From Bacillus sp. (in: firmicutes) (lineage in GTDB: Bacteria > Bacillota > Bacilli > Bacillales > JACDOC01): a stretch of DNA of 64,000 nt. A program made the position numbers and the translations under genes. How positions within the stretch are numbered: position 1 is the stretch's first letter; each line of letters begins with the position of its first letter. Positions 48,776 to 58,905 of this stretch are shown here, in pieces. The DNA is taken from NCBI GenBank assembly GCA_017656295.1, contig JACDOC010000001.1:186001-250000 (forward strand), read 5' to 3'. The notes under the pieces are model-generated. The model did not search any database and was not told the DNA's origin. It worked only from the letters and a program-made list of their open reading frames with translations.

Positions 48776-49356
48776 GGTTCATCACCATAAGTCGTGGATG
48801 ACAAATTCTTTATCTTATGCTTCCGGTTTCTAAACGGATACGTAAAAAGAAACGTTCATCATTGCGATATCCATAAGCACGACGTTTAAGAAGTTTAATT
48901 TTATTGTTTGTTCCTTCCATGACTCCATTAGACAATGATAAAAAAGCACAGGAAAGAAACACTTCTTCTTTGGTGAGAAGCGTATTAACGATTTTTCTCA
49001 TGACCGAACAACGATTCCGGACAAAAGTTGGACCCAATCGTTCCATCGTCGTTTGGCTTGTGTCATCGAAGTCGACTTCAACACATAACGGATGTGTTGA
49101 AGCCCTTTATAAAGTTGAGATAAGTTGTCGTCTTGTAAGCACCATTCTCGAACTTGTATCCGTTCTTCTTCACTTAATAAACCCAGCTCTGATGTAAGAA
49201 GACGATTCATATGGCGGACGGTTTGATGTTTTCCTTTCTTGTCTAAATAGTAGCGACGACGCATTAAAGCATCTGTTATCAGTTGAATGACATGAAATCG
49301 ATCGAGCACGTGAATCGCTTTGGGAAATACCTCTTCAATGGCCTCTTGTTGGGAAT
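48776..49356 (-). mobile_element. ISL3-family insertion sequence relic with broken transposase
   Basis: The minus strand encodes the C-terminal ~180 residues of an ISL3-type transposase: PKAIHVLDRFHVIQLITDAL, then a frameshift near 49015, then NGVMEGTNNKIKLLKRRAYG and YRNDERFFLRIRL. A terminal-repeat-like end (GGTTCATCACCATAAGTCGT) lies at 48776. The N-terminal half is missing; homology stops exactly at a REP-like fragment at 49357. It is inactive. Confidence 0.8.
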
Positions 49357-49458: not shown

Positions 49459-49980
49459 CTAGAAAAAGTATTAATCGTGGCAATTGATGCAGCTAAGTTT
49501 TTTCAAAAAGCTTTAATTTGTAATTATTTAGGTGATGTAATAGAAAAACCATTTTTCTTTGGTATCAATCAGAGTGGCATTCAGGATCTTTGTTCAAGGA
49601 TAGAAAAAGCTAAAAATGAAGTGTTAGCTGAACGTATTTTTATTGGTGTGGAGGCTACAGGTCACTACTATGAGGATATCGTAAGGGAATTAGGGAAATT
49701 TGGATATGGGGTTACTATTATTAATGCGGCAACAGCCTATGAAGAGAGAGCAAGAGCTTTAAACTGGAGTAAAACAGACGATCTAGACCTTTATGCGATT
49801 GCCCATGCATTAATTCAAAATAAAGGAATGGAAAATAAATTACCAGAAGGAATTCATCGACAGCTCAGGATCCTCACTCGCGCAAGTGTGGTTTATTTTA
49901 TTCTAATAATTTATATTGCGATGGATAGGTTTCTAAATCAATTTTTTAATACTAGAGATAAACTTAAACAAAGTAAGTAA
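49459..49980 (+). pseudogene. IS110-family transposase, N-terminal fragment
   Basis: Encodes the DEDD catalytic part: VLIVAIDAAKFFQKALICNY (first Asp), IFIGVEATGHYYEDIV, ALNWSKTDDLDLYAIAHALI and LPEGIHRQLRILTRA. After LTRA (about 49886) the sequence diverges into low-complexity residues and ends, so the C-terminal transposase_20 domain with its Ser is missing. IS110 elements lack clear inverted ends, and none are seen. Confidence 0.8.
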
Positions 49981-50256
49981 AAAAGACCGAAAATTTAGAT
50001 ATAATATTTCAACTGATCTGGTAGGTGCGTTTAACCTTAAACAATTTATTGTAACAATCAACAAAGCAGTTGATTAAGAAACAGCTAATAAGCTCTTAGT
50101 GGCTTAGAGTGCTGTAACTATGTTCTATATAAAAACATGTAAAAAATGTAGATAAATACGACAATAGGAAAATACTATTTTTAAAAAATTGTAATATTTT
50201 GTAGAAACATGACATAAAAAATGGTAGTATAAAAATGTTAGAAAATTTAATATATA
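49981..50256. other. AT-rich gap upstream of a riboswitch
   Basis: No gene is recognised. The region is AT-rich, with GTAGAAACATGACATAAAAA and GGTAGTATAAAAAT near its end; the latter could be a -10 region for the riboswitch transcript. Confidence 0.4.
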
Positions 50257-50354
50257 AGTGATAAAGGCAAACTTATCGAAAGGTAGGGACGCAAAGCTAC
50301 GGGTCTAAAGTTCCAATGAACGATGATCGCCGGGCCGCCACAACGTTTATCATT
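50257..50354 (+). ncRNA. Cyclic di-GMP-I (GEMM) riboswitch
   Basis: The core matches GEMM-I in order: AAAGGCAAAC, a GAAA-capped hairpin (TTATCGAAAGGTA), GGGACGCAAAGCTACGGG, TCTAAAG and the receptor-side GATCGCCGGGCCGCC. TGATAAA (50259-50265) and TTTATCA (50346-50352) close the P1 stem. The base at the G20-equivalent position is G, as expected for c-di-GMP. A terminator and an SLH gene follow. Confidence 0.88.
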
Positions 50355-50379
50355 TTGTCTTGTCTTATTTTGTTTTGGA

Positions 50380-50408
50380 TGGCTGCCCAAAAAAGGCAGC
50401 ATTTTTTA
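50380..50408 (+). terminator. Leader terminator (riboswitch expression platform)
   Basis: GGCTGCC and GGCAGC flank a CAAAAAA loop and are followed by TTTTTT. It lies between the aptamer and the SLH gene, so it is the probable switch for transcription. Confidence 0.75.
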
Positions 50409-50437
50409 TTACTAACTTGTTTATGGGAGGGGTCAGT

Positions 50438-51637
50438 ATGAAAAAATTCATTTCTTTTATTCTTGTATTCATTTTAGTAATGTCAGCGTTCCCATCGATG
50501 TCGCCATCCGCAGCGACGAAACAAAAATTTTCTGATGTCCCAACGGATTATTGGGCATATAATGAAATCCAATACTTATCAGATTTTGGTATCATTAAAG
50601 GCTATTCAGATGACACGTTTAAACCATCTAAACCTGTTACAAGAGCACAGGCTGCTGTGATGATTGCTAGAGCTTTAAACCTATCACTTGAAAACCATCA
50701 AAATCATTATTATGACATTCCAAGTGACTTTTGGGCGGTAAAGGAAATTGCCGCAGTTACGGAGGAAGGGATTTTTCCTGTATTTGAAAAGTTTGAGCCC
50801 AATCTTCCTCTAACACGTGATATTATGGCATATGTATTAACTAATGCTTACTATTTGCCTAACTTCATCGATGATTTAAAATTTACGGATATCGATTATT
50901 CCAATAAATATAGAGAAAATATTGCAGCTCTACTTTCCAACCGAATAACAACAGGATATATGGACAATACATATAGACCAAAAGGCACAGTGACCCGTGC
51001 ACAGTTTTCAGTCTTTATGTCGAGGGTCTTGAATCCTGACTTCCGTAAAGGTACCGCTTTGAATAAAGAGCTTATTTATACCTTAACTGATCAAGAATTT
51101 AAAGAAGCGATTGCATTAGGAGAGCAGGATGAGGAAGAATTAAAAACATATTTTTGGCAAAATTACTCTTTGCCATTTAAGAGAAAAACATATGATGCAA
51201 TAGAGCCTATGACAGCGATTGTAACACCTTATATGTATACAGTTTTTGCTTCTGCGGGTTCTAAGCAACTAGGAGAAAAATTGCCAGATGTGAAAACAGC
51301 CAAATCAATATTAAGAGAAGAGTATCCAGTCGAATTGATATACTTTTTAGTTGAGACTTATGAATACCCAGGTGAGCAAAAAGAAGATAGCGTATATATT
51401 ATTCAAGATCACATTCAAAGAGAGCCATTAAAAATAGAACAAGTTAATAATGAATTAAGCTCTATTACTGATCCAGAGTCTGGGGAAGAACTTATTTTCA
51501 ACTCATATTTAGTTGCATTTGATGCTTCTGTTCTTGATTTTGAACAGCCTGCTACACTTGAAGTAATGGTTGAGGATGTTCCAAACTATCGAGTGAATAC
51601 ATTTGAATATGAAATTAATTTTAGTGATTATCAGTAA
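50438..51637 (+). CDS. SLH-domain surface protein under c-di-GMP riboswitch control
   Basis: A 399-residue exported protein: signal peptide (1-27), three SLH domains (~28-80, 85-140, 145-200; GYSDDTFKPSKPVTRAQ and GYMDNTYRPKGTVTRAQFS mark them) and a ~200-residue C-terminal domain with no motif I recognise. The ATG at 50438 has GGGAGGGG upstream; the in-frame ATG at 50360 lies inside the leader terminator and is unlikely. Codon use is AT-rich. Its leader places its expression under c-di-GMP. Confidence 0.82.
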   Translation: MKKFISFILVFILVMSAFPSMSPSAATKQKFSDVPTDYWAYNEIQYLSDFGIIKGYSDDTFKPSKPVTRAQAAVMIARALNLSLENHQNHYYDIPSDFWAVKEIAAVTEEGIFPVFEKFEPNLPLTRDIMAYVLTNAYYLPNFIDDLKFTDIDYSNKYRENIAALLSNRITTGYMDNTYRPKGTVTRAQFSVFMSRVLNPDFRKGTALNKELIYTLTDQEFKEAIALGEQDEEELKTYFWQNYSLPFKRKTYDAIEPMTAIVTPYMYTVFASAGSKQLGEKLPDVKTAKSILREEYPVELIYFLVETYEYPGEQKEDSVYIIQDHIQREPLKIEQVNNELSSITDPESGEELIFNSYLVAFDASVLDFEQPATLEVMVEDVPNYRVNTFEYEINFSDYQ

Positions 51638-52080: not shown

Positions 52081-54012
52081 ATGAAGATTTTGAATAAGAC
52101 AATCCTATTCTTGTTGATTTCTTTTTTTGTACTTGCTTGTTCACATTTACTTCCTGTAGAAGCAGGCGAAAAAGAAATTAAAGTAGGAGTCGTAGTTTCA
52201 GCACTAAGTGAGGAATATGCCTTTATTGAGCGGCCAGGTGGTTACAATCATGGGGTTTATATTATGCCAAAATCCATTGGTTCTTCCATTAAAAACAAAC
52301 GCATTAAAACAAAAATCCTTCTAGAAAGCCTCGGGTATGAAGTAGCGTACATTAATGATCAACAACTAAGTAACGTTAATGAATTAAAGAAGTATGATAC
52401 TGTGTTTTTTCCTAACACAGTGATGATGTCTAAACAACAACGGGAAGCTGTTAGAAAATATATCAAAGATGGTGGTGGCGCAATTTTTGCCTTTGCATTT
52501 GCACGAAATGAGAGTGCTCACTTTCCTTATAAAGACACAGACTTAGATCTAACGCCGCTTATATACGATACGAAGACGTGGATTTGGGAGTGGGATAATG
52601 TAAGCGAGTTGTTCCAGTCCGCTTTTGTTAACGATGTAATGGTTGGAAATGCGAAGATGACTAGTACGGGAAATCATCCAATAGTTAAAAATACGAAAAA
52701 ACAAATCGGTACATCAGAAGTGGTCATCCAAGATATGAGATACAACATGTATGGGCCAACATGGATTGAGGTTATTAACCCATATCCAAATAGTTATGTC
52801 ACGCCGTTATTACAATACAGCTATATTGGTTATTCGAGTGTGCCTAAACATACGCCAATTGGAACGGGAGCGGCTTATGCAATCGAATACGGAAAAGGAA
52901 AAGCTGTATGGTTTGGTTTTCAGCCGTTAAATTATATAGCTGTCCCTAATGAACGTTCGAATGAATGGGATGTCCAAAATCCAAAAGGCCGAAAAGAGGT
53001 TAGAGGGGAAGCATGGGACGGTTTAATTGGCGGCGATGTGCTGAAAGTCTTCCTTGATGAGTCCGTGAAGTGGACATCTCACCCGTTGGACACTTTTCAT
53101 TCGATAAACCGGGACGTTTCGATTCGCTTAAGCGACGTTCGAGCGTATCCACGAGCAAATGATTATGTCGTTTACGCAACAATGACCAGCAAAAATGAAG
53201 GAAACGTAATTACAAGAGGCACGATGACTGTGCAACTGATCGATCCTTCTGGAAAAGTAAAAGACACTTATGAAAAATACATAGTAGGCATTATACCTCT
53301 TGGTGCAAGCTATCCAGAGAAAATTCAGTTATTTTTACCGAAAAATCCAGTGGAAGGAAATTATCGATTGGTCGCTACCTATCATACGGGAAGAAGGAAT
53401 AAAGATGGACTAAGCATCGCAGCAGACTCTAAAATTATTTCCATCACAAATAACCGCAGTCAAGCGACAATAAAAGATGGCGCTGTCTTTTCGGACGTTT
53501 CTTCATCCTTTTGGGCCAAAAAAGATATTAATCATCTATTTAACTTAGGTATCTTCAATGGCTATAAAAATGGTACATTTCGCCCTAATCAACCAATAAC
53601 GAGACTAGAGGCAGCAACCGTTCTAGTTCGTTCTCTCGGGTTATCTACTAAAAATCGTCCAGATCCAAAGTTAGTAGATGTAAAACCAGGTCAAGAAGGC
53701 TACGACATTATCGCAACGGTTGTGGATCAAGGAATATTTAGCGGCTCGAACGGTTATTTTCGTGCAAACAATCCGTTAACCCGAGAACAGATGGCAAAAA
53801 TTTTGGTGAACGCCTATCAGTTAACAGGCACCGAAACAGTTTCCTTTAAGGATGTAGAGTTAAATCGCTGGTCGTATCCATACATTTCTGTCTTAAAAGC
53901 CAATAAAGTGACAAATGTACAAGAACATTTCCGACCTACTGAGAAAACAACCCGCGCTCAGTTTGCTGCCTTTGTAAGAAGGTCTATGCTAATGTCTCAT
54001 TTTACTCAATGA
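52081..54012 (+). CDS. SLH protein with N-terminal class I amidotransferase-like (GATase/ThuA-type) domain
   Basis: A 643-residue exported protein. After a signal peptide (1-28) a Rossmann-like domain (~30-310) reads KVGVVVSALSEE, ILLESLGYEVAYINDQ, KYDTVFFPNTVMMSKQQREA, YIKDGGGAIFAFA and GKGKAVWFGFQPLNYI, the pattern of trimerisation/GATase-like folds, without a clear nucleophile Cys. A beta domain (~345-455) follows, then three SLH domains (465-640; GYKNGTFRPNQPITRLEA). GGGAGTGG precedes the ATG. Likely a surface enzyme or ligand-binding protein of unknown substrate. Confidence 0.75.
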   Translation: MKILNKTILFLLISFFVLACSHLLPVEAGEKEIKVGVVVSALSEEYAFIERPGGYNHGVYIMPKSIGSSIKNKRIKTKILLESLGYEVAYINDQQLSNVNELKKYDTVFFPNTVMMSKQQREAVRKYIKDGGGAIFAFAFARNESAHFPYKDTDLDLTPLIYDTKTWIWEWDNVSELFQSAFVNDVMVGNAKMTSTGNHPIVKNTKKQIGTSEVVIQDMRYNMYGPTWIEVINPYPNSYVTPLLQYSYIGYSSVPKHTPIGTGAAYAIEYGKGKAVWFGFQPLNYIAVPNERSNEWDVQNPKGRKEVRGEAWDGLIGGDVLKVFLDESVKWTSHPLDTFHSINRDVSIRLSDVRAYPRANDYVVYATMTSKNEGNVITRGTMTVQLIDPSGKVKDTYEKYIVGIIPLGASYPEKIQLFLPKNPVEGNYRLVATYHTGRRNKDGLSIAADSKIISITNNRSQATIKDGAVFSDVSSSFWAKKDINHLFNLGIFNGYKNGTFRPNQPITRLEAATVLVRSLGLSTKNRPDPKLVDVKPGQEGYDIIATVVDQGIFSGSNGYFRANNPLTREQMAKILVNAYQLTGTETVSFKDVELNRWSYPYISVLKANKVTNVQEHFRPTEKTTRAQFAAFVRRSMLMSHFTQ

Positions 54013-54054: not shown

Positions 54055-54220
54055 ATCTTGTTATATATCGTATAAATGGGATAAAAATTGTCATCCAACC
54101 TCTGATGTCAATCATTTCCACTCTAGTAAAAAAAATATTCCATCCCTTTTTATATTAAGTTGTATATACTAGGGGACTTGATTATTTTTATCATTTCTGT
54201 GATTGAAACTCGATTCTAGA

Positions 54221-54412
54221 ATAATGAAACTGCAAGCCAAACGTCGGAAAGTGCAAGCCAAACGTCGGAAAGTGCAAGCCAAACGTCGGAAAGTGCAAGC
54301 CAAACGTTGGAAACTGCAAGCCAAATGGTGGAAACTGCAAGCCAAACGTCGGAAACTGCAAGCCAAACGGTAGAAACTACAAAACAAACGGGATAAACTA
54401 CAAAACAAGGAA
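54221..54412. repeat. Tandem array of 21-nt units (CGTCGGAAAGTGCAAGCCAA core)
   Basis: Nine units of 21 bases, each close to AAAGTGCAAGCCAAACGTCG, slowly decaying to AAACTACAAAACAAACGGGA. The core AAASTGCAA is the same as in the 21.7-kb array. It fills the convergent gap between the SLH gene and yknX. Open frames across it are artefacts of the period. Confidence 0.8.
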
Positions 54413-54509
54413 CACAACTGCCACAATAAAAGCTAGCCTAACCTCAAAAAGAGTGATTATAACTAATAAAAAAGCAGGCCTCCTGATTAGAAGACCTACC
54501 TTTTTAACA

Positions 54510-56524: not shown

Positions 56525-57421
56525 TTAATTTTTTACAAAATTAGTATGTGAATATAGCTTGATGTTGTTCATTTCGGTTACATAATAAACGAGATCAGGT
56601 GAGAAATATAAACCGATTTGGGCAGTATCTTTTGCTTTTAAAGAAAATTCATCGGCTGTGAATTCAAATAGTCCTTCCGCTATAATTTCACCATCTGCTG
56701 TGACAGCAACCATAGTATCTCTTAACTCCACAGGATAATCAAAATTATTTTTGAATTCTACTAATAGAGTGAGTCCTCCCTCTTGATCCCACTCATAATT
56801 GATTGGATTTATCAGAACGGTTTGTTTGAAGGAATCATTGAGAATTCTTGCCATAAACGCAGCGAACTGGGCTCGTGTTAAATTTCCGTTAGGACGATAT
56901 GTAGCGTCAGGGTAACCGGTCGTTATATGATTATCAAATAAACTAGATACGTAGTCGTAAGCCCAATGATCATACGGCACATCAGTAAATTCAGAATCGT
57001 ACACATATAAAAGGTCATATGCTTCTGCAAGGATTTTCGCCATTTGGCCTCTTGTCAATGTATCCCATGGTTTAAAATAGCCATTACTTCCAGTCATAAT
57101 TCCTTCATCTGCTAATGTAGCAGCGTATTCATAGCCATAATCGCCTGGTTTAAGATCTTTAAAATTTGGATTTGGACGATTTTCTGTGCTTAGACCGAGG
57201 CCTTTCACTAACATCTCTGCCGCTTGCATTCGTTTAATCGGGTCATTTGGCCCAAAATTCCCGTCCTTGTATCCTCTAATAATTTGATTTTCTACAAGAA
57301 AATGAATTTCATCGTAAGCCCAAAAGTCTTCCTTTACATCTGGGAAATTAGTGGCGGCTGACGAGTTCATGCTAGGTAACAGGAACCATGTTGTAATAAA
57401 AAGAATCATAATCCGCTTCAT
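56525..57421 (-). CDS. SLH-domain protein with SLAP-like C-terminal domain
   Basis: A 298-residue exported protein: signal peptide (1-23), three SLH domains (~25-75, 85-140, 145-198; GYKDGNFGPNDPIKRMQ and GYPDATYRPNGNLTRAQF) and a C-terminal beta domain (205-298). The last domain, with VEFKNNFDYPVELRDTMVAV and FSLKAKDTAQIGLYFSPDLV, resembles the repeated modules of SlaP (NSLPKAIKLGVTPLLLI...). The similarity is by eye. Likely a minor wall-polymer-bound protein. Confidence 0.78.
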   Translation of the reverse strand: MKRIMILFITTWFLLPSMNSSAATNFPDVKEDFWAYDEIHFLVENQIIRGYKDGNFGPNDPIKRMQAAEMLVKGLGLSTENRPNPNFKDLKPGDYGYEYAATLADEGIMTGSNGYFKPWDTLTRGQMAKILAEAYDLLYVYDSEFTDVPYDHWAYDYVSSLFDNHITTGYPDATYRPNGNLTRAQFAAFMARILNDSFKQTVLINPINYEWDQEGGLTLLVEFKNNFDYPVELRDTMVAVTADGEIIAEGLFEFTADEFSLKAKDTAQIGLYFSPDLVYYVTEMNNIKLYSHTNFVKN

Positions 57422-57545: not shown

Positions 57546-57636
57546 TATGGAGTAGGGTACAATCAGGGAAACCTGATGTCACAAAGCTATAGGGGCTAAG
57601 GGGATTCCTATGCCAGCCAGCTGCCATTACCATTAA
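57546..57636 (+). ncRNA. Second cyclic di-GMP-I (GEMM)-like riboswitch
   Basis: ATCAGGGAAACCTGAT is a GAAA-capped hairpin, followed by GTCACAAAGCTATAGGGG, CTAAGG and CCTATGCCAGCCAGCTGCC, in the order and spacing of GEMM-I. By hand alignment the base equivalent to Vc2 G20 looks like A, not G, so ligand choice is uncertain. P1 is weak (ATGG/CCAT). Confidence 0.72.
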
Positions 57637-57654
57637 ACAGGAGGAAAGGTAATG
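57625..57654 (+). promoter_or_regulatory. Start-codon-masking hairpin (riboswitch expression platform)
   Basis: CATTACC (57625-57631) can pair with GGTAATG (57648-57654), which contains the start codon; the ribosome binding site AGGAGG lies in the loop. CATTACC also overlaps the 3' arm of the aptamer P1, so ligand binding could free the start. Confidence 0.5.
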
Positions 57655-58905
57655 AAAAGAAAATTTTTAATGAAAGCATGCCTTTTTGTTTCATTATTTT
57701 CTTTAATGGTGTCTGCACCTATTTCTGCAGCTAGCCCATTATCATCGGAAGAAGAGGTATCCCAATTAAAGAAAGGCAAACCAGAAAAGCCAGACAAGGA
57801 ATCAGGTAAGCCAGAAAAACCTGAAAAAGATTACGATAAACCAGAAAAAGATAAAGATAAAGAAAAACCAGAGAAACCTGAAAAAGAGAAAGACAAACCT
57901 GAAAAAGACAAACCAGAGAAAGAAAAGGATCATCCAGGAAAAAAAGATAAAGATAAACCAAATAAAGAAAAAGGAAAAATTAAGAGAACAAATAGTATTT
58001 CAAAACGTTTAGATAAAATTGAAGAAAAAATTAATGAAGTGTCAAACGAAATAACTGAATATTATTCAACGGAAGAAAACGGGGAAGAAACCGAGTCAGA
58101 AAATGAAACTGGTTCAACGGAAGAAGAAACAACGGAAACTGATCAAGAAGAAAGTACAGACGATTCCTCAATTAAAGATGAGAGTTCCGTGAACGATGAG
58201 GGAAGTAATGCTGAAGAAGGAGCGGAAAATACGGAAGATTCTTCATCTGAAGAGGATGCTACAAACGATTCGGTAATGGATAAAGTAGATGGTTCCCAAG
58301 AGGAAACTACCGAAAATCCAGACAATACAGGATCAGAAGATGAAAGTGGAGTTGAATCGAAGGAAACAGAGGAACATTCTAGTTTATTCAATTCTGGTGT
58401 CCTAGTTATAGAAGCAACATTAATTGACGGCGTAGATGAAGAAGAGGATGAAACAAAAGATATCACAGAAGAAAATGACGACATCGATGAAGATGAAGAG
58501 TCAGACGAAGGCGACACAGAGGATAGTGAGGATCGTTCCCAAAGTTTTATTGGCAAATTAAATGCTCAAATTAACAAACTTCATGCAGTGAAAAAGCAAA
58601 TTAAAAACCTTAAGAAAAAAGTAAGCGAAGACGATGCTGAAGTCACAGCATTAGAACAACGTGCAGAAGATTTAATCCAGCTAGCCCAATCTGAAATTGA
58701 ACGAGTAAAGGAATTACGTGCAGGAAAGACGGTTCCATCAGTTGAGGATGAACCCGTAGAACAAGAAGAAGGTTTAGATCAAACTGAAGACGATACGAAT
58801 AAGCAAGAAGAATCAACCGAAAATGAAGAAGTACAAGATGAACAAGATACTGATTTTCCAAATGAAAATCCAGAACCAACAGCTGAAGAAGAAAACTTAG
58901 AATAG
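57652..58905 (+). CDS. Secreted low-complexity protein with KPEKP repeats and acidic region
   Basis: A 417-residue exported protein: signal peptide (1-27), Lys/Pro/Glu repeats (~36-115, PEKPEKEKDKPEKDKPEK type), an acidic Ser/Thr/Glu-rich region (~125-305), a coiled coil (~310-365, KLHAVKKQIKNLKKKVSEDD and EQRAEDLIQLAQSEIE) and an acidic tail. There is no LPXTG, SLH or enzyme motif. The charge alternation would suit contact with the wall or the lattice. It lies behind the second GEMM-like riboswitch, so it may be a c-di-GMP-controlled matrix or surface component. Confidence 0.72.
   Translation: MKRKFLMKACLFVSLFSLMVSAPISAASPLSSEEEVSQLKKGKPEKPDKESGKPEKPEKDYDKPEKDKDKEKPEKPEKEKDKPEKDKPEKEKDHPGKKDKDKPNKEKGKIKRTNSISKRLDKIEEKINEVSNEITEYYSTEENGEETESENETGSTEEETTETDQEESTDDSSIKDESSVNDEGSNAEEGAENTEDSSSEEDATNDSVMDKVDGSQEETTENPDNTGSEDESGVESKETEEHSSLFNSGVLVIEATLIDGVDEEEDETKDITEENDDIDEDEESDEGDTEDSEDRSQSFIGKLNAQINKLHAVKKQIKNLKKKVSEDDAEVTALEQRAEDLIQLAQSEIERVKELRAGKTVPSVEDEPVEQEEGLDQTEDDTNKQEESTENEEVQDEQDTDFPNENPEPTAEEENLE

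Follow-up and report, generated by a model that had tools for sequence, protein, structure and literature searches.

The stretch of DNA analysed here (the window; 64,000 nucleotides) comes from a Bacillus sp. genome assembly of 3.1 Mb in 60 contigs that is 99.9% complete. Its plus strand carries an aptamer of the class I cyclic di-GMP (c-di-GMP) riboswitch family at 50256–50342, followed by an intrinsic terminator at 50382–50407, a ribosome-binding site recognized by its sequence at 50425–50432 (GGGAGGGG) and a gene that runs from an ATG at 50438 to a stop at 51637 and encodes a 399-residue secreted protein with SLH domains. With the terminator and the ribosome site lying between it and the ATG, the aptamer occupies a 5’ leader position and an expression platform is present. 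Directly upstream of the riboswitch are two open reading frames (ORFs) that by eye resemble broken transposase genes (48810–49309 on the minus strand and 49477–49980 on the plus strand).

Aptamer, terminator and target gene

The scan with the Rfam model RF01051, which the initial annotation had proposed as a check of its GEMM-I aptamer, gave a plus-strand match at 50256–50342 that covers model positions 1–87 of 87 (i.e., the full length), with a score of 81.9 bits (gathering threshold 35 bits) and an E-value of 1.4e-14 for the window. The covariance score is thus not low, the aptamer is borne out, and the coordinates first given were correct to within 1–2 bases. RF01051 is the best-scoring family of its clan at this site, where no other Rfam family exceeds its cut-off, and the pocket letters are those of an ordinary c-di-GMP-I aptamer (ACGCAAA, versus ACGCGAA in the consensus of the variant RF03167), the letter that distinguishes the GGC family (RF03167) being absent. 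The predicted ligand of this class I aptamer is c-di-GMP. A structured RNA known upstream of SLH-domain genes in Synergistaceae, Clostridia and Negativicutes, the SLH motif RNA, resembles the present leader in this respect (PMC6429828), but it is another RNA, it is not a c-di-GMP aptamer, and it has no match here. Given the RF01051 E-value, the lead over the other clan families and the missing GGC letter, it is extremely improbable that the leader holds a different kind of RNA, whether the SLH motif or an aptamer variant of the c-GAMP or GGC type.

The terminator consists of a GC-rich stem of 6 bp (50382–50387 with 50395–50400) and the tract ATTTTTT, with six T at 50402–50407. It is the sole terminator-like site in 49900–50800, a segment in which shuffled sequences average 0.2 such sites, which agrees with the earlier placement of a leader terminator between the aptamer and the SLH gene. 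Because only 37 bases separate the stem from the ATG at 50438, an internal promoter is unlikely. The ORF tool placed the gene start at a TTG at 50360, a candidate that we rejected as unlikely because the frame would run through the terminator.

The target gene matches PF00395 with an E-value of 9.7e-32, and the genome domain scan resolves three SLH stretches in a protein that begins with an apparent signal peptide; the S-layer protein Sap carries SLH domains related to these. No Pfam family covers the C-terminal ~200 residues of the protein, for which a search of 396 other order genomes also gave no relative. The AlphaFold model of the protein alone has a mean pLDDT of 37.7 and was set aside. 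The initial annotation had tied a surface-layer-associated protein to c-di-GMP; the aptamer class, the terminator and the SLH target all stand, and ‘S-layer’ is better read as ‘SLH-anchored surface protein’.

We consider it highly probable that the riboswitch controls the SLH gene. The genome encodes seven GGDEF domains, and c-di-GMP can therefore probably be made; that the ligand would exert this control in cells is what we infer from the sequence. A decayed riboswitch, with a conserved aptamer, an unresponsive platform and expression that depends on how often polymerase passes a fixed terminator, is quite improbable in view of the high aptamer score over the full length and of a terminator, a ribosome site and an ORF that are all intact, even though 5 of 16 predicted c-di-GMP riboswitches of C. 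difficile gave no sign of function (PMC6200980), apparent transposase remnants lie just upstream, and the alternative folds described below are nearly equal in energy.

Folding of the leader and the sign of the switch

Constrained folding pairs the 5’ strand of an extended P1 helix (50260–50267, plus strand) with 50338–50339 and 50346–50351. In the lowest-energy fold of 50256–50388, the aptamer 3’ strand GGCCGCCA (50333–50340, plus strand) takes the terminator’s 5’ side as an alternative partner, the pairing strand being TGGATGGCT at 50376–50384 (plus strand), which was delimited by folding and complementarity, reads TGGaTGGCT and takes in the first half of the terminator’s 5’ arm. In RNA ending at 50388, from which the terminator’s 3’ arm is absent, this antiterminator is the lowest-energy structure at -27.3 kcal/mol, versus -25.6 kcal/mol for the intact aptamer, a lead of 1.7 kcal/mol, and the complementarity of the two strands is better than that of 98.6% of strand shuffles. 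A coarser complementarity test, which used a simple terminator finder and high-scoring aptamers only and is taken only as supporting evidence, gave p 0.055 for this leader, which counts against the OFF reading given below, and 3’-strand pairing at p ≤ 0.05 in 15 of 66 terminator-bearing leaders across the order. Such pairing is a real design in the order and is not universal. The aptamer and its terminator have no bases in common. In the full-length leader, folding favours the terminator with or without the aptamer, and the switch must therefore act during transcription.

These features point to an OFF switch of the type represented by Cd1 (Cdi-1-3), which precedes the flgB operon of C. difficile. 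At low c-di-GMP, the aptamer 3’ strand would pair with the 5’ side of the terminator and RNA polymerase would read through; when c-di-GMP is high, ligand binding would keep the 3’ strand in the aptamer, the terminator would form and the surface protein would not be made. The OFF sign is favoured because the antiterminator is the lowest-energy fold before the terminator’s 3’ arm is made, and because the aptamer and the terminator share no bases, unlike in the ON switch pilM, where the two structures are mutually exclusive (PMC9262584). As in Cd1, the class I aptamer stands apart from the terminator, with which it can coexist, and the antiterminator is drawn from the aptamer 3’ strand and the terminator’s 5’ side; in Cd1, too, the terminator prevails at full length, the antiterminator being only transiently stable (PMC9262584). 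The two systems differ in that Cd1 governs flagella, whereas the present target is a surface protein, and in that the ligand response of Cd1 has been measured. In C. difficile, those class I switches that function do so as OFF switches (PMC6200980). One further likeness is Cdi-1-2, before CD630_27970 of C. difficile, which combines a class I aptamer, a surface protein and negative regulation by c-di-GMP (PMC6200980), although its target is a calcium-binding putative adhesin that this paper does not describe as an SLH protein and its host belongs to another branch of the phylum.

The modelled energies are not by themselves sufficient to fix the polarity, and there is a weaker ON fold. The same riboswitch could act as an ON switch if, without ligand, the 5’ P1 strand paired with the linker and the terminator formed, and if, with ligand, the freed linker paired with the terminator’s 3’ arm to give read-through. 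In the ligand-free ensemble, the 5’ P1 strand is indeed strongly paired with the linker, and this fold prevails at most of the lengths between 50370 and 50404, with the antiterminator reaching a probability of ~0.35 at most, at 50388; moreover, the linker can also bind the loop and the 3’ arm of the terminator, at -8.6 kcal/mol. The OFF reading is also weakened by Bc2, located before cap in the Bacillus relative B. thuringiensis, which likewise joins a class I aptamer and a terminator to a surface adhesin and is an ON switch (PMC4933901); Bc2 differs from the present leader in that its ON sign is proven and its target is a collagen adhesion protein. Three points nevertheless speak against an ON switch: with the aptamer in place, the terminator beats the linker pairing by 7.8 kcal/mol; this pairing uses the terminator arm that is made last and so gains no head start; and the terminator is compatible with the aptamer, which is not the case in pilM (PMC9262584). 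We therefore regard ON polarity as unlikely and OFF polarity as probable, and the complete reading, in which a class I c-di-GMP riboswitch controls transcription termination of the SLH gene as a Cd1-type OFF switch, as fairly likely. No relative with the same leader was found among the order genomes, and the nearest protein relatives (L073–L075) have no RF01051 match in the flanks examined, so that covariation lends the expression platform no support.

The surface-protein region and the other aptamers of the genome

The whole genome contains four RF01051 matches, three of which lie within 14 kb on the contig of the window, at C1:236256, 243546 and 250026 (window 50256, window 57546 and 26 bases beyond the window end), and each of these three precedes a gene for a secreted protein. 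All SLH domain matches of the genome (27/27) fall within 80 kb, C1:217226–297190 (window from 31226 on), and the same stretch holds its single PF04230 (CsaB-like) gene, at C1:291931; for these reasons we take C1:217–297 kb to be the SLH region of the genome. The CsaB-like gene would provide the means of pyruvylating the wall polymer bound by SLH domains, the polymer being its presumed substrate. Two neighbouring genes also match PF00395, one on the plus strand without an aptamer of its own (52081–54012) and one on the minus strand (56525–57421), divergent from the second aptamer. Between them, on the minus strand, a short ORF (54169–54426) is composed of tandem repeats of CSFRRLA and CTFRRLA and is probably a repeat tract, not a gene.

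The second class I aptamer (57546–57628, plus strand) matches RF01051 over its full length with 65.8 bits (E 1.2e-10) and stands before an ORF at 57652–58905 (plus strand) for a protein that is charged and repetitive, bears a signal peptide and matches no Pfam or NCBIfam family. Folding places the start codon of this gene in a hairpin (CATTACC/GGTAATG; 57626–57654, plus strand), the 5’ arm of which overlaps the predicted P1 of the aptamer. Because P1 and the start-codon hairpin share bases in these models, translational control is suggested for this second switch, perhaps with an ON sign. The third aptamer matches RF01051 with 80.3 bits and, within L005 4027–5657, precedes the gene for a secreted DUF5667 protein, with the ribosome site of that gene inside a strong hairpin; strands able to swap with P1 are visible in its leader. 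Taken together, the three leaders could form a c-di-GMP-controlled surface locus in which the platforms (a terminator, a start-codon hairpin and a ribosome-site hairpin) differ in sign or threshold, a reading that we hold only tentatively. If it were true, a single messenger would exchange one group of secreted or wall-bound proteins for a different one.

The fourth of the genome’s aptamers (C10:2685), accompanied by a terminator, stands before folE and the genes for a double PTPS protein, an SDR reductase and an RsbW-like ATPase (L006 2686–9033); other genes of the locus include those for a HAMP protein and a STAS protein. In seven other genomes of the order (L056/L189, L058, L068, L077, L134, L153 and L179), such an aptamer immediately precedes folE and PTPS, and one of the seven has a tandem of three aptamers; the SDR and ATPase genes are also present in five of these loci, namely those covered far enough. 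The arrangement suggests that pterin synthesis may be under c-di-GMP control. In the papers searched, we found none that joins c-di-GMP, a riboswitch, GTP cyclohydrolase and pterin. The E-value assigns this fourth aptamer (L006 2686–2776) to the GGC variant RF03167 under the Rfam clan rule, whereas RF01051 gives more bits; since the distinguishing G is absent, we rejected the variant and read the aptamer as ordinary c-di-GMP-I, which automatic annotation would probably mislabel as RF03167. The conserved link between c-di-GMP and pterin may deserve more attention than the SLH riboswitch.

Recurrence in the order and biological meaning

The comparison set comprised 397 genomes of the order, with none other from the same genus or family. 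RF01051 is present in 351 of the 397, and 154 distinct aptamers (the four of this genome and high-scoring ones from the others) were examined for the genes behind them. An SLH gene comes first behind 4 of the 154, i.e., the leader at 50256 and three others, two of them in one genome (L117 and L120) and one in another (L168), with RF01051 confirmed in each case. Inspection of the sequences revealed a hairpin with a U-tract between the aptamer and the SLH gene in all three. The combination of aptamer, terminator and SLH gene is thus uncommon and recurrent in the order. In the literature searched, a scope outside which most subscription journals lie, no earlier account of an SLH gene under a c-di-GMP riboswitch was found.

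These results make it likely that c-di-GMP controls an SLH-anchored protein directly through RNA. The genome has three flagellin matches, with flagellin genes at C1:316–323 kb, and a motile state is therefore likely. If the OFF polarity holds true, the SLH protein would belong to the low-c-di-GMP, motile state, which would be unexpected for a biofilm adhesin. The riboswitch before the SLH gene gains in interest because a surface-protein gene cluster has three such sensors within 14 kb: with three of the genome’s four switches gathered there, the locus is marked as a c-di-GMP-responsive surface region, and a single strain offers three testable leaders.
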